DNA of 24,837 bases from a virus. The notes beneath the pieces are model-generated. The model was not told the origin of the DNA, did no database searches, and saw only the letters and a program-made list of their open reading frames with translations. This document shows positions 17,206-24,837 of this stretch, piece after piece. The first letter of the stretch is position 1. Every line of letters begins with the position of its first letter. The translations under genes were made by a program, and so were the position numbers. Where the stretch lies: the IMG/VR virus record IMGVR_UViG_3300027788_000075, positions 1-24,837 of that record; one strand, written 5' to 3'.

Positions 17206-19134
17206 CTAATTTATATCCCCAGGGTAGCGTTGTGTCCACATTGTAAAGCTATATTTCGTTCCCGAAACAAGTTCTGTACACTCATGACCGTGTGTGACCA
17301 TGCCCGGAAACAGAATCATCTTACCACAAGGCACATCATCGTTGTTAACACCCTGTCTTGGGTAGATCAAAGACGCACCTTTATAGTCATCATTGAGCTT
17401 AACGGATCCTGTAACAAGAGAGGCATCATTGTGCAAAGGCAAACTCTTTTGAGTGTCCACCGAATATCGCATAACGAATGCATCACGCATACCATACATT
17501 TCAATAGGGTGCCAAAGCTTCTCTACGATTGGTACGATATGTTCTTTCCAATGGGTTTCTAGCTCATTCCACAATCCTAGTTCTTTGACACGGATCTCAT
17601 ATGCTGGAAACTTATCTTCTGGCATAGGTGCCCACTTGCCGTGGTTATCACCCATTTCAATCAAACGATCACACTGGCTTTGTGTCATGAAGTCCACAAC
17701 CATCATGTCCTTTTCAAGCATGTCAACCTTACCGTGATGGGGGATGAACATCGGAGACTGTGGAGTTGTTCCTAAAGCGGTTTTAGGTTTAGGCAATGCC
17801 TTTGTGTATTTGGTGTGCACTTGGCTCCATAGGTTATCAAACTTTACTTTAGCCTCAAACCCACCGTTACCATGATATAGACAAGGAACAGTATTCGTGA
17901 TTGGGTTCCATAGCTCATTACCTACGTCTACTTCTGGCTCGTGCGTTTGGAAGATATATTGTTCATAGTCCAACCCTACAGAGAATTTAGTAGTATCGTT
18001 TAGCCAGACACGTTGCATGTATAGCTGATCGTCATCATCATCGTTAAGTCGTTCTCCAAAGAAGTCTTTTAATGCACCAACCCTACCAATGTATTGTCCA
18101 CTGTTGAGGTATTTGTAATGAAAGAGGTTGGGTTCTGGATGTAGGCTTTGCATGCTCTCGTCAGGCCAACAGCTTGCTTCTGCCCCGAATAGGATCTCTA
18201 CAGAAGCGTCCATATACCGTTTAACGATTTCTTGTAGATTATTTGTAAAGAATACGTCATATGCATCTGTGAATAGAAGAATATCGTTTTCGGGCAAGGT
18301 GTCGAGATAGTCTCGCACCAAGTTAACTTTATGTCCACCACCAGGGCCTTGCATGTCTGTACCAGCCCAATCGACATTAGTGCCCAAGTTCTTAACATCA
18401 AATCCCATTAGTGCCGCACTGTCATTCAATGCTACACACTTAGATCTATCCGTACCAACCGTAACCGCATGAACATTGAAGTTTTGGAACCAATCGTCAT
18501 GGCTTTGTGGCTCAATGTCAGATCCAAGAGCTTCTCTACTAATCTGTGTCGCAATCTCTACTTTGAGTGCTTGTACGTTATGTGTCTTTACCTTCTGAGC
18601 CAAGACCTCATCTACAGGGATGATCTTTCTGTGGAAACCACTATTAATAAGATCATGCGCCATTTTAACAGTTAGCATATATGCATGACCATTGTATGGA
18701 TAGCAAGGCTTAACTAGGTGTTGATTGCCACCTTCTGTGACACCAGTTTCGTTATTCTCGTTGTGACCCAAATATAGTAGATCGATATTATGCTCATCCA
18801 TCCACTCGTGGTATTCGTTCTCTTTCCACTTAAATCTGTCGATCTTAACATCATCTTCGAAGATGATTGTAGTCTCGTTTAGTTCAACTACTTTCTGCCA
18901 CGCCTGATAGTGTGATAGGAAGCAACCAACCTCACCCTTTGTAATTCTACGGTTCTTGAATGGATCACGCCATTTGTGATTAACACCAAATTCATTGTCT
19001 ACCATACGTTGGTGATCAATGTCATGACCATCAATGGCAAATACGAATTGATAATCTTCCAACCAACCACATTCACCCATAAAGGATCTTTTTCTGTCAG
19101 TTCTTCGATTTAGATTAATAACTAGCTTGTGCAT
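17206..19134 (-). CDS. Three-domain GT25 / PLOD-type glycosyltransferase / 2OG-Fe(II) hydroxylase
   Basis: 642 aa with three domains. Residues 1-200: a GT25 (LPS glycosyltransferase) fold, VINLNRRTDRKRSFM, KGEVGCFLSHYQAW and the acidic motif FEDDVKI (93-97 region). Residues 220-430: similar to the glycosyltransferase domain of animal procollagen lysyl hydroxylases (PLOD/LH3), LLFTDAYDVFF (Asp290, Asp293), LFGAEASCWP, YLNSGQYIG, DDDDDQLYMQRVWL and LYHGNGG. Residues 470-635: a PLOD-like 2OG dioxygenase with iron ligands His568-x-Asp570 and His617 and 2OG-binding Lys627 in GTKYSF. In animals and in mimivirus L230, such proteins hydroxylate lysine and glycosylate it. The phage substrate is unknown; no collagen-like Gly-x-y protein is visible here. 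It has a strong AAAAGGA ribosome binding site and follows another 2OG oxygenase gene. Confidence 0.92.
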   Translation of the reverse strand: MHKLVINLNRRTDRKRSFMGECGWLEDYQFVFAIDGHDIDHQRMVDNEFGVNHKWRDPFKNRRITKGEVGCFLSHYQAWQKVVELNETTIIFEDDVKIDRFKWKENEYHEWMDEHNIDLLYLGHNENNETGVTEGGNQHLVKPCYPYNGHAYMLTVKMAHDLINSGFHRKIIPVDEVLAQKVKTHNVQALKVEIATQISREALGSDIEPQSHDDWFQNFNVHAVTVGTDRSKCVALNDSAALMGFDVKNLGTNVDWAGTDMQGPGGGHKVNLVRDYLDTLPENDILLFTDAYDVFFTNNLQEIVKRYMDASVEILFGAEASCWPDESMQSLHPEPNLFHYKYLNSGQYIGRVGALKDFFGERLNDDDDDQLYMQRVWLNDTTKFSVGLDYEQYIFQTHEPEVDVGNELWNPITNTVPCLYHGNGGFEAKVKFDNLWSQVHTKYTKALPKPKTALGTTPQSPMFIPHHGKVDMLEKDMMVVDFMTQSQCDRLIEMGDNHGKWAPMPEDKFPAYEIRVKELGLWNELETHWKEHIVPIVEKLWHPIEMYGMRDAFVMRYSVDTQKSLPLHNDASLVTGSVKLNDDYKGASLIYPRQGVNNDDVPCGKMILFPGMVTHGHECTELVSGTKYSFTMWTQRYPGDIN

Positions 19135-19159: not shown

Positions 19160-19720
19160 TTAGTCTCTGTAGAGATACAAATCAACAGGGACGCAGATCC
19201 GTAGTTCGGAGTAGTAAGGGTTGACGTGGTGATAAGCGAAACTTGGGAAGATCAAGAAGTCTCCTGTCTCAGGTTGATGATGATGTCTGTTAAACATTGG
19301 ATTGAAATATTCGTCATACCCCCGATTGGCATTAGATCTAGGATCGTGTAGCACCAAGTCGCCGCCCGAATTTTGATCTTCTGCTAGTATATAGAACACG
19401 CCAGATAAGTGTGCTCCCGAATGATTGTGAATAGTCATTGAATAGTCTTTACCGTGACCAGTGATCCAACCCTTTAGCTTGTAGTTGTCCCAATCCTCAA
19501 TAGAGCAATCAATAGTACTCTTTAGGTAGTCATTAAAAGCACTCTTAACAGTACTATTAAAGGCACTCATAACAGCACTCTTATCATCCAATATGTTATA
19601 TCCACCCAAATCGCTAGGTGGTTCGTTTAGATTGTATGTGCTAAATATATGTTCCACTAAACCAGTGGTGTCGAACTTTCCTTGACCCATCTGTGTAGGC
19701 CATAGATTATGGATATCCAT
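19160..19720 (-). CDS. 2OG-Fe(II) oxygenase (TIGR02466/2OG-FeII_Oxy_5-like)
   Basis: 186 aa, the usual length for this family of small phage and marine bacterial 2OG dioxygenases. The core has MTIHNHSGAHLSGVFYIL (about 95-112; metal-ligand His region), DLVLHDPRS (Asp126-Pro-Arg), then GDFLIFPSFAYHHVNPY (distal His164/165) and ELRICVPVD (Arg174, 2OG contact). Substrate unknown; members are often placed with phage structural genes and are assumed to hydroxylate proteins or other small targets. It is the first minus-strand gene at the divergent junction and lies 25 nt upstream of the PLOD-like fusion, so the two oxygenases are probably co-expressed. Start ATG has AGAAGTGAG upstream. Confidence 0.9.
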   Translation of the reverse strand: MDIHNLWPTQMGQGKFDTTGLVEHIFSTYNLNEPPSDLGGYNILDDKSAVMSAFNSTVKSAFNDYLKSTIDCSIEDWDNYKLKGWITGHGKDYSMTIHNHSGAHLSGVFYILAEDQNSGGDLVLHDPRSNANRGYDEYFNPMFNRHHHQPETGDFLIFPSFAYHHVNPYYSELRICVPVDLYLYRD

Positions 19721-19800: not shown

Positions 19801-19830
19801 TAGGTATAACAAATGAAAAGAGAGAATCAC

Positions 19831-20115
19831 ATGACTATGATGAACACAGTACTTGACCAAATCAATCGTATGGACGCTTCAGAAATCAACCGTGTAGTTG
19901 AAGCGATCAAATCTCGCCGCAACTCACTGTCTTATGCCACAAACGCTACCTTGCGTGTTGGCGATATTGTCTCTTGGATGCGCCGTGATGGAAGCACTGT
20001 AACAGGATCTGTTAAGAAAGTTAATCAGAAAACAGTTATAGTAAATGAACGTAATAACCCCAATGTTTGGAAAGTATCTTCAAGCATGCTTACTCCACTG
20101 TCTATAGGTGGATAA
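19831..20115 (+). CDS. Small KOW/SH3-like protein heading the radical SAM operon
   Basis: 94 aa from the ATG at 19831, chosen because AGAGAG sits 6 nt upstream; an in-frame ATG at 19813 would add six residues but leaves almost no leader after the predicted promoter. The N-terminal third is helical (TVLDQINRMDASEINRVVEA). The C-terminal half has a KOW/SH3-like beta pattern: LRVGDIVSWMRRDGSTVTG, VKKVNQKTVIV, and WKVSSSMLTPL. Similar short proteins with a VGD...GxVxxIxxKTVxV pattern occur in marine T4-like phages without known function; nucleic-acid or ribosome binding is a plausible guess. It does not look like a peptide precursor (no Cys-rich or repetitive core). Its TAA overlaps the next ATG (TAATG). 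Confidence 0.85.
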   Translation: MTMMNTVLDQINRMDASEINRVVEAIKSRRNSLSYATNATLRVGDIVSWMRRDGSTVTGSVKKVNQKTVIVNERNNPNVWKVSSSMLTPLSIGG

Positions 20116-20579
20116 TGACATTTGACGAATTCTTCGACTTCTTGATGAGTGAAGAATGTTTTAATGACTGTTCGGTCTCCTTTATTAACAATAGAGGAGA
20201 ACAACAGTACATAGAGCATGACGATTTATTTGCATATAGGGGCAAGGTGGTTGATCTTTGGTTTAGTGGAGATGATACGATTAAGGTAGAGGGATATGAA
20301 CGTATCCAACCTTATGATGGGACTATCCATATATTCTATGCTCCTACAAATGCTCCTTCATTTCCTGTACATACAGATCCTATAGATATCTATATCGAAT
20401 GCCTTGATGGGCGTAAGATAATGGAAATTGACGACCAATACGTGATGATAGAAAAGGGAACGAAGATCTTTATTCCCGCAGACACACCACACGTTGCGCT
20501 CAACTCAGAGAAAGCATTGACATTAAGCTATGGCATTAACGACACAAACACATTCGGTAATCTACGTAAAGACTACTGA
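20115..20579 (+). CDS. Minimal JmjC/cupin (ROX-like) oxygenase
   Basis: 154 aa from the ATG in TAATG at 20115, with AGGTGG upstream. A single cupin barrel: metal motif His86-x-Asp88 (HTDPIDIYIECLDGRK) and distal His126 in GTKIFIPADTPHVALN, which fits cupin motif 2, followed by KALTLSYGI, like the SLTLSIGF end of bacterial cupin_4/RoxA-type JmjC ribosomal protein hydroxylases. At 154 aa it is less than half the length of the RoxA proteins (about 370-390 aa) and lacks their dimerisation and winged-helix domains. Expected chemistry is Fe(II)/2OG hydroxylation, but a plain metal-binding cupin cannot be excluded. Its 3' end overlaps the first radical SAM gene by 50 nt. Substrate unknown. Confidence 0.82.
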   Translation: MTFDEFFDFLMSEECFNDCSVSFINNRGEQQYIEHDDLFAYRGKVVDLWFSGDDTIKVEGYERIQPYDGTIHIFYAPTNAPSFPVHTDPIDIYIECLDGRKIMEIDDQYVMIEKGTKIFIPADTPHVALNSEKALTLSYGINDTNTFGNLRKDY

Positions 20580-21561
20580 AACTTGTAATCTTAATTGCAG
20601 TCACTGTTTTACTTCTGGTATGAATGGGCGTAAGATCTATTTTGATCACGTGAAGACCGCAAATTGGTGTAACGAACTCGACACTGGCTCTAACCAGATC
20701 CATTTAGAGTACCATGGTGGTGAGCCTATGCTTGCGCCCATGGCACACCTACGAGAATTCCATGACATCACTAAAGCTCAATGGGGTGATCGTGCAACTC
20801 ATGGTATCACAACAAATCTTGTGTTTAAGCTTACCGAAGAGAAACTTGCATTCTTTAGTGAAATCATTACAGGTGGTAACATCGGCACCTCATGGGATCC
20901 TAATATTCGTTTTACTAACGAACATCAAAGGAAGATGTGGGAAAATAATGTTAAGCAGTTGACAGGACTTGGGCATAGTGTCAAGTGCTTTATCTCTGTA
21001 TCTAAGGATGTTATTAAACTACAACCGTTGGAGATTGCTGATTATATGGAGTCTCTTGGTGTTGCTGAGATCTCTTATGAACGACTTACCCATGATGGTA
21101 ATGCCACAATCAATACGGACATCTTTCCTCATAACTCTGAACTAGATGCTTGGTGGATGCTGATGCATGAACAAACTCAAGATCACCCTGTAGAAAACGG
21201 CTTTATGGGATCCATCTACGACAAGTTCAACAAAGGGCAGTTCCAGATCGGCACATTCTGTCGTGATTGCGAACAAAAGATCCACACTATTAATGCAGAC
21301 GGTACTGTCGCAGGCTGTCCTAACACCGCACCAACCATGCATTATGGTCATATAGATACACCAGCAAAGGAAGTAAGATTAAGTCCTAAGCGTATGGAGA
21401 TCATATCTTGTGAACAGCATGAACGTGATGAACGGTGTTACAAATGTCCAGTCTTTATGTATTGCCATTCTGACTGTCATCAGTTACAATGGATGGATGA
21501 TGTGTGCCCTGCGCCTAAAACATTGATGATGAAGTTAGCGAAAGAGAAGAAATGGATTTAA
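20530..21561 (+). CDS. Radical SAM protein 1 with canonical SPASM domain
   Basis: 343 aa. The radical SAM [4Fe-4S] motif is C19-x3-C23-x2-C26 (TCNLNCSHC), with the SAM-binding HGGEPM at 62-67. The C-terminus holds a full SPASM domain: C247-x10-G-x4-C263, then C303-x2-C306-x5-C312-x3-C316 and a final C326, enough for two auxiliary clusters. SPASM enzymes mostly modify peptides or proteins (thioether or C-C cross-links, epimers, formylglycine). The general layout recalls anaerobic sulfatase-maturating-type proteins, but the target is unknown. The ATG at 20530 is the only reasonable start before the motif; it overlaps the cupin gene. It is translationally coupled to radical SAM 2. Confidence 0.93.
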   Translation: MALTTQTHSVIYVKTTETCNLNCSHCFTSGMNGRKIYFDHVKTANWCNELDTGSNQIHLEYHGGEPMLAPMAHLREFHDITKAQWGDRATHGITTNLVFKLTEEKLAFFSEIITGGNIGTSWDPNIRFTNEHQRKMWENNVKQLTGLGHSVKCFISVSKDVIKLQPLEIADYMESLGVAEISYERLTHDGNATINTDIFPHNSELDAWWMLMHEQTQDHPVENGFMGSIYDKFNKGQFQIGTFCRDCEQKIHTINADGTVAGCPNTAPTMHYGHIDTPAKEVRLSPKRMEIISCEQHERDERCYKCPVFMYCHSDCHQLQWMDDVCPAPKTLMMKLAKEKKWI

Positions 21562-22589
21562 TCGTAAAGCCAACCGAAGCGTGTAACTTCAAGTGTACAT
21601 TTTGCTCGTCAACAGATATCGATCCCAATGAGGTTGGTCTGTTAGACTTGAGCTATATCTATAGGTTCTTAGAAAGGTTTCCAGAGACTAACACAATTAT
21701 TGTTAATGGTGGTGACCCTCTTATGGTCAAGCCACAGTATTATCAAGATCTAATTGACCACCTTAATGAGCATGATTACCCAGCAAGCATTAGCTTTACG
21801 TCCAACCTTTGGCCTTTCCTAATGAAACCTAAGAAGTGGTTACCCATCTTTCAGAACGAACGATTTGGTTGTGCCACATCATTTCAGTATGGTGGCGGTA
21901 GACTAAAAGGCGATTATTCAGAGTTCACAGAGGCAGACTTTTGGATGGTGTCTAATGCCATGTTGAAGCATACAGGTGAACGTCCAGATTTTATCGCAGT
22001 TATTACAGAAGAGAATGAGCATCTCGCCATTAAGAATGTAGAACTAGCAAAAGAGATGGGCGTCGAGTGTAAGTTGAACTATGCTATGGCTTCTGGTGTA
22101 CAGGGATCTACGTATCAATTAAGCAAGATCTACGAAACATATCTTGAGATTTATGACCGTGGTCTAGCCGATCATGAGTTCAACACTAAGCAAATGATGA
22201 AACGTCTTGGGGGATCTTCTACATCATGCCCACAGAATAGAGCGTGTGATGAAGGTATCCGTGCATTTAACCCAGGAGGTGATTACTACTCTTGTGGTTC
22301 ATTTGCAGATGATATGGATTATCCTATCGACTTCGAAACTGAGATGGCAGGAAAGTTGCAAACACCACTGCAACACGACCCCAACATTCAGACAATGAAG
22401 ATGGCTTGTTACACATGCCCTATGTTTGAAATCTGCAATGGTTGTAAGAAAACTGTGCGTGATATGAAACGTGAAGGTACTGTTGAAGGTCATTGTAGGC
22501 AGATGAAAGCATTAGCACCTCGTATCCTTGCTACCAATAATATGAGTCCTGATGGAGTGACGCCCTATGTCGATGAATCTATCAATTAA
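21552..22589 (+). CDS. Radical SAM protein 2 with SPASM domain
   Basis: 345 aa. Radical SAM motif C11-x3-C15-x2-C18 (CNFKCTFC); SAM-binding NGGDPL (52-57). The SPASM domain is present: C232-x10-G-x4-C248 and C286-x2-C289-x5-C295, with the fourth Cys only two residues on (C298, instead of x3), then C315. Extra Cys at 226. It starts inside the last codons of radical SAM 1 (10-nt overlap) with AAGAGAAG upstream. It is not a close copy of protein 1: the N-terminus is shorter and the loop after the barrel differs, so the proteins are paralogues with separate jobs rather than a recent duplication. Confidence 0.93.
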   Translation: MDLIVKPTEACNFKCTFCSSTDIDPNEVGLLDLSYIYRFLERFPETNTIIVNGGDPLMVKPQYYQDLIDHLNEHDYPASISFTSNLWPFLMKPKKWLPIFQNERFGCATSFQYGGGRLKGDYSEFTEADFWMVSNAMLKHTGERPDFIAVITEENEHLAIKNVELAKEMGVECKLNYAMASGVQGSTYQLSKIYETYLEIYDRGLADHEFNTKQMMKRLGGSSTSCPQNRACDEGIRAFNPGGDYYSCGSFADDMDYPIDFETEMAGKLQTPLQHDPNIQTMKMACYTCPMFEICNGCKKTVRDMKREGTVEGHCRQMKALAPRILATNNMSPDGVTPYVDESIN

Positions 22590-23496
22590 CCCAACTTACT
22601 ATTGTAACTTCTCTTGCGACTTTTGTTACTTGACAAAGCAACAGTTAAATGATAGACACAAGATAAACCCAATGTGGTTACAACATTCTATGGGTCAAAT
22701 AACAGATCCTATAACTCATGTTGATTTATATGGCGGTGAGATTGGATTACTAACACCAGAGTATTATTATTCGATCAAAGAGGTGATTAGGAGATACTAT
22801 GGTGGTAGTATCCACATCAACACAAATCTGTCAGCATTTCCAGACTTCTTCCGTGATGATGATGTTACCCTATCGGTATCTTATGACTTCCACGCAAGAG
22901 AGAAAGAACAGTTTGTTCTAAATAACATGATGAATGCTAATAAGGATCTTGCTGTCCTTATCCTTGCATCGCCTAAAGTATTGAAGATGGATGTGGAGTT
23001 TATGATCTTCACTCTTAACATGGTTTCTAATGTCAAGTCGGTAGAGATCAAGCCTTACTCTATCAACCAAGCCAATGCATTTGATGTTACTCATAAAGAC
23101 TTTGAGGACTTCGTTATTAGGTTTGATGAGGCTAAGACTAAGAAGAACTTTGACTTCCAAAACATACACAACATTTATAGAAGTATAGATAAAGAGTACA
23201 ATGCCTTTTCCAATGACCACGTCTATATCACACCATCTGGTAAGTTTGGCGTATTGGAGTTTGATAAGCATGATAAAGAGTACTTCAAGGAGTATAGCAC
23301 ATATTATGAATATAAACAATGGGCAGATAACGAAGCTGTTGATAATCTTAGCGACATTTGTCGTAGCTGTACCTATTTCGGTACATGTCTTACCGAGCAC
23401 TATCGGTACGTATTGGATTTAGACAACAGTTGCAATGGATATAAAGGATTACTAGATTACTATGGAAAATTGGAAAGCGAGACAGAAGGCGTATAA
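22567..23496 (+). CDS. Radical SAM protein 3 with reduced SPASM/Twitch-like end
   Basis: 309 aa from the ATG at 22567 (GGAG about 10 nt upstream; another ATG two codons on). Radical SAM motif C13-x3-C17-x2-C20 (CNFSCDFC); the GGE motif is GGEIG (56-60). The C-terminus keeps only C265-x2-C268-x5-C274 and C289; the first SPASM Cys pair is replaced (HVYITPSGKFGVLEFD, with Gly but no Cys), so at most one auxiliary cluster is expected. It overlaps radical SAM 2 by 23 nt and the orphan gene by up to 35 nt. It could be a single-cluster enzyme or a partner subunit. Substrate unknown. Confidence 0.9.
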   Translation: MSMNLSINPTYYCNFSCDFCYLTKQQLNDRHKINPMWLQHSMGQITDPITHVDLYGGEIGLLTPEYYYSIKEVIRRYYGGSIHINTNLSAFPDFFRDDDVTLSVSYDFHAREKEQFVLNNMMNANKDLAVLILASPKVLKMDVEFMIFTLNMVSNVKSVEIKPYSINQANAFDVTHKDFEDFVIRFDEAKTKKNFDFQNIHNIYRSIDKEYNAFSNDHVYITPSGKFGVLEFDKHDKEYFKEYSTYYEYKQWADNEAVDNLSDICRSCTYFGTCLTEHYRYVLDLDNSCNGYKGLLDYYGKLESETEGV

Positions 23497-23860
23497 TCAT
23501 ATGACAACAAACCACCGTGACGATTTGACGGATGTTGATGTATTGAATAGGCCAGAATTTATTGTAGAAGATGCTTTGATGCACTTCGATAAGAGAGTGG
23601 ATCAGTGGATCTACCCAGCGAAGTCGTTCTTCGTTGCAATCTGCTATGCCAATTGGATAGCCGAAGACTTTGGTGAGCAGTTCTATGATGTACTAAACTA
23701 TAACGAATTACTACCAGACGATCCACACTTCCTACCATATGAGAGAAGTAAAGAGATCTATGATGAGATCCTTTCTAAAGTTAATTTTGATAATACTAAT
23801 GGTATGGTTCCAGATGTCTATGAGTATTACCAAGAGGAATTCATGATTGGACAACTTTGA
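23462..23860 (+). CDS. Orphan acidic protein between radical SAM 3 and 4
   Basis: 132 aa, no family that I recognise. It is acidic and unusually rich in aromatic residues (for example QWIYPAKSFFVAICYANWIAE near the middle and VYEYYQEEF at the end), mostly helical by appearance. There is one Cys (in AICYANW). No signal peptide or membrane segment is evident. It could start at 23462 (overlapping radical SAM 3 by 35 nt) or at the ATG at 23501, which has AGAAGG 11 nt upstream; the latter gives 119 aa. Its stop overlaps the TTG start of radical SAM 4. Placement between two modifying enzymes makes it a candidate partner or substrate, which is inference only. Confidence 0.8.
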   Translation: MENWKARQKAYNHMTTNHRDDLTDVDVLNRPEFIVEDALMHFDKRVDQWIYPAKSFFVAICYANWIAEDFGEQFYDVLNYNELLPDDPHFLPYERSKEIYDEILSKVNFDNTNGMVPDVYEYYQEEFMIGQL

Positions 23861-24837
23861 CTTCACCAAACAGCTACTGGAATCTAAACGTCCAGACATA
23901 GCCGAGATTGAGATGACACTCTTTGAGAACTGTCACCTCAACTGTTCTTTTTGTCACCACGACAAGAAGTCTACAGTAGGCTTGTCTCGTGAAGAGATCT
24001 TCTCCAAGATCCCTCTAGTAGAAGAGCATGTTATTAAGATGAAGAACCGTGCAGACGTTATTCAGATCAATATGCTTGGTGGAGAATTGTTTCAAGACCG
24101 AATATCTGAGTGGGCTTATGAGGTCTACTACGACTTCTTAGTTGAGATTAAGAAGATCTATGATGAACATAAGCAGAACATTAAAGTAGTTTGGGTAACA
24201 TCCTTTCAGTTTAGTAAACGTGAGAGAGTTCAAAAACTACTTGATGATTTGAATGCAATAGACATTCCATCCTATATTATCTGTTCTTATGACTTTGATG
24301 GTAGACCTGTCAAAGGACCTTATGGCAAGAACATAGAATACTTTGCTGATTATATCACATCTATTAATATGGTTGCAACCACTATTTCTATTAAAAAGTT
24401 TATGGCAGATGAGGACGAGTACTTTCACTATCTGTATAATAAGTTTGATAACTTCTACTTTGATGATTACATTCCTGATCGTGGTTATGACTATATGATC
24501 CCATCAGATAGTGAGTATCTTGAGTTCCTAAAGTTTGTGTATCATAACTATCCAGACATCAATCCTATCAAGGATCTGATCTATAACGAAACAAATCATA
24601 TGCATTGCTTGGCTCTTAACAAGGTTACAATCTTTCCTGATAACTCTACATCAAACTGTAGATGGGATAGATATGACCAACGTGACTTCAACACGAAGTA
24701 TGAGCCTAAAGATAATGCTGGTATGATGCAAGCTTATATGGATGAGAATGGTTGCTTGTCATGTAAGTGGTACAACAAGTGTGGCTTTAGATGTTATACA
24801 CAATGGGATTGGAAGAACCGTGAACGAGATCTGCCCG
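23847..24837 (+). CDS. Radical SAM protein 4 with SPASM domain, TTG start, cut by window end
   Basis: Open for 330 codons from a TTG at 23847 to the window end with no stop, so the 3' end is missing. The frame is closed just upstream (TGA at 23844). AGAGG lies 9 nt before the TTG; the first in-frame ATG is at 23913, only six codons before the motif. Radical SAM motif C29-x3-C33-x2-C36 (CHLNCSFC); LGGELF holds the GGE-type SAM site (77-82). The SPASM part is visible: C254-x11-N-x4-C271 (Asn in place of the usual Gly) and C303-x2-C306-x5-C312-x3-C316. It overlaps the orphan gene by 14 nt. Family as for the other radical SAM proteins; target unknown. Confidence 0.9.
   Translation, partial: MDNFDFTKQLLESKRPDIAEIEMTLFENCHLNCSFCHHDKKSTVGLSREEIFSKIPLVEEHVIKMKNRADVIQINMLGGELFQDRISEWAYEVYYDFLVEIKKIYDEHKQNIKVVWVTSFQFSKRERVQKLLDDLNAIDIPSYIICSYDFDGRPVKGPYGKNIEYFADYITSINMVATTISIKKFMADEDEYFHYLYNKFDNFYFDDYIPDRGYDYMIPSDSEYLEFLKFVYHNYPDINPIKDLIYNETNHMHCLALNKVTIFPDNSTSNCRWDRYDQRDFNTKYEPKDNAGMMQAYMDENGCLSCKWYNKCGFRCYTQWDWKNRERDLP

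Follow-up and report, generated by a model that had tools for sequence, protein, structure and literature searches.

Radical S-adenosylmethionine (SAM) enzymes of the SPASM type usually introduce cross-links (thioether, C-C, C-O or His-N) or carry out side-chain oxidation. The described systems closest to the locus reported here are those of darobactin and dynobactin, in which the maturases DarE and DynA act on a short precursor, and the His-Xaa-Ser system, in which a repeated His-x-Ser stretch (HxsA) lies beside several radical SAM genes (HxsB and HxsC). Our locus lies in a stretch of 24,837 nucleotides from a marine T4-like phage (IMG/VR record IMGVR_UViG_3300027788_000075, positions 1 to 24,837; the window), where positions 20115-24837 of the plus strand form a single overlapping operon holding a cupin/JmjC-like gene, four divergent radical SAM genes (R1 to R4) and a gene for an orphan protein of 132 amino acids (aa). 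We put at roughly 60% the probability that this operon encodes most enzymes of a system resembling those that mature ribosomally synthesized and post-translationally modified peptides (RiPPs), and that its target is the C-terminal tail, CHxSCHxSCHxSRxRR, of a fibre-region virion protein that we refer to as the CHxS protein.

Several radical SAM genes in a large phage, as here, have been reported before: twelve in TARA_ERS488813_N000010 (PMC5332604), eight, within the structural gene cluster, in Aeromonas phage 332-Vera (PMC12390700), and several each in FLC6 (PMC8066314) and RP12/RP31 (PMC5468394). The passages of these reports that treat the genes leave their function open or ascribe it to Fe-S metabolism, and name no substrate, orthologous four-enzyme set, CHxS protein or bacterial relatives. 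A literature search whose coverage leaves out most subscription papers and preprints found nothing linking phage radical SAM or RiPP genes to a substrate. The abundance of radical SAM genes in phages was known; what appears to be new is the conserved set with its proposed substrate, and the link to predatory bacteria, and the novel part would be a virion protein as the target of SPASM-type, RiPP-like maturation.

R1 (343 aa, window 20530-21561), R2 (345 aa, 21552-22589), R3 (309 aa, 22567-23496) and R4 (23847-24837, with a TTG start and truncated by the window end), all on the plus strand, carry the CxxxCxxC and GGE-like motifs of the radical SAM superfamily. An earlier note on this DNA, made from the letters alone, had described an overlapping plus-strand unit with four distinct radical SAM proteins and a TTG-started last gene, each enzyme with CxxxCxxC, three of them SPASM-type and one reduced. 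That description holds: the reading-frame listing gives seven plus-strand genes right of 19.8 kb whose neighbours overlap by 1-50 bases, and in alignments of orthologues CxxxCxxC is invariant within each of the four orthogroups, the GGE motif is conserved (GGD in R2), and besides the three cysteines of CxxxCxxC there are 8, 8, 4 and 7 invariant C-terminal cysteines in R1, R2, R3 and R4, respectively. R1, R2 and R4 have the 7-8 C-terminal cysteines of the SPASM subfamily, including CX2CX5CX3C in R1 and R4 and CX2CX5CX2C in R2, and R3 (invariant cysteines 13, 17, 20 and 265, 268, 274, 289) falls outside it with a reduced, twitch-like cluster of four. All four proteins match PF04055, R2 alone above the curated cut-off (31 bits against 29.5), and phrog_1802, with E values from 1e-18 to 6e-54 (R1 6e-54, R3 3e-34, R4 1e-18), and only R1 exceeds the SPASM model TIGR04085 (29.9 bits against a cut-off of 27).

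Among NCBIfam models, the highest scores of R1 and R2 are to peptide maturases, DarE for R1 (39.5 bits, cut-off 650) and DynA for R2 (48.5 bits, cut-off 450), over most of their length and with SPASM-type cysteines in common; the PapB model gave 38 bits (cut-off 340). These scores lie far under the equivalog cut-offs, and the chemistry of the two enzymes is therefore not readable from sequence. The set also differs from DarE and DynA in comprising four enzymes in separate orthogroups, and in its putative substrate, which has a folded body ending in a tail. The likeness to the His-Xaa-Ser system lies in the repeat beside several radical SAM genes, but here the repeat reads Cys-His-x-Ser and closes with a fixed RxRR; matches to HxsB (27.4 bits against 370) and HxsC (25.2 against 268) are too weak for membership, and ten CHxS proteins gave no HxsA match at E values up to 10. 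The CHxS protein was rejected as an HxsA or other known RiPP precursor, as it belongs to no NCBIfam or Pfam family and matches just phrog_35144. A sequence search of the PDB with R1 returned spurious Homer-domain matches only.

A tree of 117 radical SAM proteins, made by a quick method that leaves its deep joins unsure, separates R1, R2, R3 and R4 into four orthogroups (17, 19, 18 and 23 rows, with support of 100, 99, 100 and 98), each of which includes members from jumbo phages, marine contigs and Bdellovibrionota. Copies per genome were counted by profile assignment, which gave one R1, R2, R3 and R4 apiece in the jumbo-phage isolates Atu_ph07, Phosso, SURPRISE13 and pPa_SNUABM_DT01 (R4 being duplicated in Phosso), one of each in the contigs G001 and G004, one of each over two stretches in G003, and the full set in two Bdellovibrionota loci, with two R1 genes in one locus. 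Searched by tblastn against 50,697 phage records, R1, R3 and the 132-aa orphan each matched the same seven records and no others: Agrobacterium phage Atu_ph07 (two records), Sinorhizobium phage Phosso, Burkholderia phages SURPRISE13, FLC6 and FLC8, and Pseudomonas phage pPa_SNUABM_DT01 (DT01 below). The protein that the earlier note called an orphan (window 23462-23860, plus strand; phrog_20737, 2e-36) is a conserved companion of the set, with blastp matches of 1e-22 to Atu_ph07 and Phosso and of about 1e-12 to those of Bdellovibrionota. Atu_ph07 is described as a member of the T4 superfamily (PMC6102473), FLC6 has radical SAM and cupin proteins resembling those of RSF1 (PMC8066314), and genes of this kind are shared by RP12/RP31 and their relative RSF1, all described as phiKZ-related (PMC5468394); the set therefore spans distantly related phage lineages. 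R1 to R4 are thus linked genes that recur as a set in isolates, marine contigs and Bdellovibrionota, not independently scattered ones.

The tail was recognised beside R1. The gene straight after R1 in Phosso, Atu_ph07, SURPRISE13 and DT01 encodes a protein of 178-306 aa that ends in CHxSCHxSCHxSRxRR followed by the stop codon, a relative with 88% identity to the SURPRISE13 protein occurs in FLC6 and FLC8, and the CHxS protein is present in all seven phage records with an R1 relative, where the CHxS-adjacent radical SAM protein shares 36-44% identity with R1 across 95-97% (tblastn). A marine CHxS protein gave no tblastn match in phages, and the tail was then traced by a DNA pattern that fixes the Cys, His, Arg and stop positions only and leaves the Ser positions free. 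The scan returned at least 120 viral-contig stretches and 19 genome-contig stretches (139 used), and the counts of CHxS loci and proteins given here and below hold among the matches listed. A complete CHxS frame is present in 135 of the 139 stretches, and 127 of these 135 loci contain radical SAM frames, always on the same strand, so that a precursor-like gene with a conserved core stands beside an enzyme gene as in RiPP loci; the gap between the two has a median of 2 bp and is at most 150 bp in 108 loci. In one stretch (L210) a radical SAM gene is present and the CHxS frame is incomplete. Three pattern matches, in Frankia, Pseudoalteromonas and Bordetella, are not ends of CHxS frames and have no radical SAM gene; they are chance matches and serve as a negative control. 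In records picked by R1/R4 content or isolate status, the tail was found in 19 of 22, and the same pattern run backward gave 0.

The tail is conserved as protein. Among 163 distinct CHxS proteins, serine occupies the three free positions in 149, 132 and 148, and glycine stands at -3 in 148. Because the serines are kept although the scan left them free, and because both the TCN and the AGY codon families occur at each of these positions, selection acts on the protein. The bodies that carry this one shared tail fall into ten groups without mutual BLAST link. For the commonest body AlphaFold2 gave a confident fold (predicted local distance difference test, pLDDT, 91; predicted TM score, pTM, 0.83), with the final two tail blocks falling to pLDDT 72 and 55; confidence is lower for the marine body (pLDDT 78, pTM 0.56). 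In BFVD the commonest body matched only other phage proteins, either CHxS-like or uncharacterised, among them a 296-aa protein of Atu_ph07 (E 9e-5, TM 0.50 of the query). The last repeat, C-H-x-S-R, resembles the formylglycine motif of sulfatases, C-x-[PA]-x-R, a likeness that we do not use as evidence. We also observed a CHxS protein with four repeats instead of three (CHSNCHSNCHSNCHTNRSRR; L152 8105-8878), with several radical SAM genes adjacent, and a contig (G002) that holds two versions of the system with three tails in total (L115 7116-16089 and L116 9124-17241), the jumbo-type copy consisting of R1, CHxS, R4, a B12-type radical SAM gene and R3, and the marine-type copy having two CHxS genes. 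Marine members have two CHxS proteins and extra radical SAM genes.

Neighbouring genes were counted in 120 dereplicated CHxS loci. A companion of about 240 aa, F2 (phrog_20767), is found in 101 of them, the cupin family in 61, often between the fibre gene and R1, a fibre family in 59, another uncharacterised protein in 55, and 2-oxoglutarate (2OG)-Fe(II) oxygenases in 34 and 25. The typical order is fibre, cupin, R1, CHxS, the 240-aa protein, and then more radical SAM and oxygenase genes; the fibre representative has DUF5907 repeats and a sub-threshold match to an autoproteolytic domain. Some loci also encode larger radical SAM proteins (L115 11417-13252, L240 1456-3123, L262 8571-10310), with a B12-binding domain match just under the cut-off in the first and PF04055 in the second, which suggests an optional extra step. 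Virion proteomics of Atu_ph07 detected 131 proteins, mostly in three clusters, one of them given as 'CDS 170-215' (PMC6102473), and gp170 in the RefSeq record (YP_009611835.1), the first gene of that cluster, is the CHxS protein.

The window phage itself could be followed beyond the window in G001, a 159,934-base IMG/VR contig that differs from it by 2 mismatches over 12,565 overlapping bases (offset +95,728). The earlier note expected an operon that leaves the window and may be longer; R4 is indeed cut by the window end, its full length being 360 aa with an end at window-equivalent 24929, but it is the final operon gene and convergent genes follow. These encode five more radical SAM proteins with the motif CxxxCxxCF, two uncharacterised proteins and two tandem CHxS proteins of 128 aa, each terminating ..LCHSSCHTSCHTSRGRR, at window-equivalents of about 32,238-33,010, which is about 7.4 kb beyond the window end and on the opposite strand to R1-R4. 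Two collagen-repeat proteins come next in that direction, a collagen-like fibre gene standing directly before the CHxS pair; the collagen-repeat fibre proteins (G001 128739-131516) have many GxKGQKGE units. PF04055 is matched 13 times in the whole contig at E values up to 0.1, not all of these matches being certain. More radical SAM genes lie outside both operons (G001:C1:140631-141575, minus strand, and 146689-149026, plus strand), and the first of these adjoins, by eye, a nitroreductase-like and a PP-loop (QueC-like) gene.

We propose that R1-R4 would act sequentially on the tail of the separately encoded, otherwise folded CHxS protein, helped by the cupin/JmjC-like protein, the 2OG-Fe(II) oxygenases, the 132-aa companion and F2. 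R1 would probably act first, because it adjoins the substrate gene. The CHxS protein would be made with the tail-fibre genes and probably become part of the virion close to the fibres or baseplate, and the likely product would be a cross-linked and/or oxidised tip, perhaps metal-binding or rigid, for host attachment or penetration. The multi-step phage pathway of peptide or protein modification that the earlier note found plausible fits all of the results, with the modification step itself a prediction. The genes, their orthogroups, the tail and its close linkage to the enzymes, the fibre genes nearby and the folded body with a tail of low model confidence are observed; the tail as target, the sequence of reactions, their chemistry, the position in the particle and the part played in infection are our interpretation.

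Several points weigh against this proposal. In the window phage the CHxS genes are some distance from R1-R4, on the other strand and with radical SAM genes of their own, and the substrate of R1-R4 there could differ. RiPP precursors do not usually contain a large folded body, and modification of the tail is a proposal, none having been seen on any CHxS protein. What points to a place in the virion is the cluster boundary given in the text of PMC6102473, and the agreement in numbering between that paper and RefSeq was checked at gp140 (sheath) and gp141 (lysozyme) only. Eight of the 135 CHxS loci are without a radical SAM gene, most of them ending at the locus edge; L149 and L228 have several kb of room on the R1 side with none detected, and their enzymes could be located elsewhere in the genome. 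Finally, a structure search of the PDB with both body models gave no significant match, which leaves the fibre-tip role without structural support.

Of the alternatives, an unlikely one that survives best is that a small peptide, a true RiPP such as a bacteriocin or signal, is made from the tail and released, with the body as a long leader to be cleaved. A short, conserved, Cys/His-rich C-terminal core beside several radical SAM/SPASM genes does resemble RiPP clusters, whose maturases are the nearest NCBIfam models, but the body is predicted to be well folded, it varies while the tail stays constant, the conserved neighbours include no recurrent protease or exporter family, gp170 begins a cluster of virion proteins (PMC6102473), and a released peptide would have little obvious use for a lytic phage. 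It is likewise doubtful that R1-R4 modify a different virion protein, such as the collagen-like fibres or the fast-evolving 132-aa companion, and that the other-strand radical SAM proteins alone serve the tail. The layout in the window phage, where the CHxS genes adjoin that other clade, would fit such a division of labour, as would a protein in the window that resembles PLOD-type glycosyltransferase/2OG enzymes, typical of collagen modification; yet jumbo phages without most of the second clade have R1-R4 together with CHxS, with R1 directly upstream.

We regard as improbable a role of the enzymes in nucleotide or RNA modification, Fe-S metabolism or anti-defence, as in viperin or QueE, with the CHxS protein a mere neighbour. 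R1 does match pVip of PADLOC weakly (3.9e-9, 34 bits), and the many radical SAM genes of marine T4-like phages have been discussed in terms of Fe-S metabolism (PMC5332604). Against this, matches to the NCBIfam models of viperin (NF038283, 24.4 bits against 180) and QueE (TIGR03963, R1 20 bits against 260, R4 11) are weaker, partial and N-terminal, which speaks against any family-level grouping with nucleotide-modifying enzymes, the SPASM-type C-terminal cysteines are invariant, and linkage to CHxS is near-obligate in very distant genomes. Very improbable, lastly, is an unmodified zinc- or iron-binding motif whose metal is assembled or loaded by the radical SAM proteins: the regular Cys/His spacing could bind metal directly, but this leaves four conserved, divergent radical SAM/SPASM enzymes and the oxygenases, as well as the conserved Ser and invariant Arg positions, unexplained.

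The remaining genes of the window complete the picture of the locus. Its left two thirds carry T4-type structural genes (Gp23 capsid, Gp20 portal, a T4-type terminase and tail sheath). The coupled run is headed by an open reading frame for a 100-aa protein (19813-20115, plus strand), whose TAA stop overlaps the ATG of the cupin gene; it has a weak DUF2187-like match (PF09953, 22.2 bits, under the cut-off), and its membership in the system is unproven. The cupin/JmjC-like protein (154 aa, 20115-20579, plus strand) had been called a mini JmjC oxygenase: JmjC_2 is matched at 1.8e-5 and 24.7 bits, just over the cut-off of 22, and the protein, a cupin of short length, carries an HxD...H metal triad and also matches phrog_8014 (5e-14). 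It probably provides an Fe(II) oxygenase step. Compared with a close relative in L015, the cupin, R1, R3 and R4 genes have ratios of nonsynonymous to synonymous substitution (dN/dS) of 0.03-0.07 and are under strong purifying selection; the 132-aa gene evolves faster. On the minus strand, directly across from the radical SAM operon, lies a 2OG-Fe(II) oxygenase (19160-19720; PF13759 8e-15, phrog_81), relatives of which recur in CHxS loci, and next to it a 642-aa protein (17206-19134; GT_PLOD 1e-45) that joins GT25-type and PLOD-type glycosyltransferase domains to a 2OG-Fe(II) oxygenase end, an architecture as in collagen lysyl hydroxylase/glycosyltransferases.

The system extends to predatory bacteria. 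In GTDB species genomes, eight Bdellovibrionota-labelled contigs and one further contig from the same phylum search have one CHxS gene each, a low frequency (8 of 291 genomes in an even sample of Bdellovibrionota). Two contigs, from Halobacteriovoraceae (382 kb) and Bacteriovorax (219 kb), hold R1-R4, CHxS and the 132-aa orphan within 35-kb neighbourhoods flanked by chromosomal genes (acyl-CoA dehydrogenase, thiolase, pyruvate kinase). We considered whether these two loci were stray phage contigs and rejected this on their chromosomal flanks and the lack of a confident sheath gene in their genomes; these are metagenome-assembled, so mis-binning is possible, and the flanks speak against it. Near both loci lies a Peptidase_S74 (fibre chaperone) protein, one of them with a pilin methylation signal (N_methyl). 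S74 proteins near the CHxS and radical SAM genes recall the MAT fibres of Bdellovibrio (PMC10769870), but those found here are pilin-like and not long MAT fibres, and the word 'radical' was not found in the text of the MAT fibre paper. It is quite possible, though less likely than not, that phages and predatory bacteria share an undescribed class of radical SAM-dependent maturation of particle proteins, in which the four enzymes convert the CHxS tail to a cross-linked or oxidised, metal-binding tip of fibre-associated proteins with which both engage Gram-negative prey.

If maturation of the CHxS tail is confirmed, virion proteins modified by dedicated radical SAM enzymes would represent a new viral post-translational chemistry, and would explain the 4 to 13 radical SAM genes of some large phages, an abundance called highly unusual in a published genome paper. 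The tail offers a concrete substrate that can be tested in cultured phages, and a DNA search pattern nearly free of false matches. Were SPASM enzymes to act on so short and repetitive a sequence as Cys-His-x-Ser, the chemistry would be new and of enzymological interest. The presence of the same set in the chromosomes of predatory bacteria suggests a common means of arming surface fibres.

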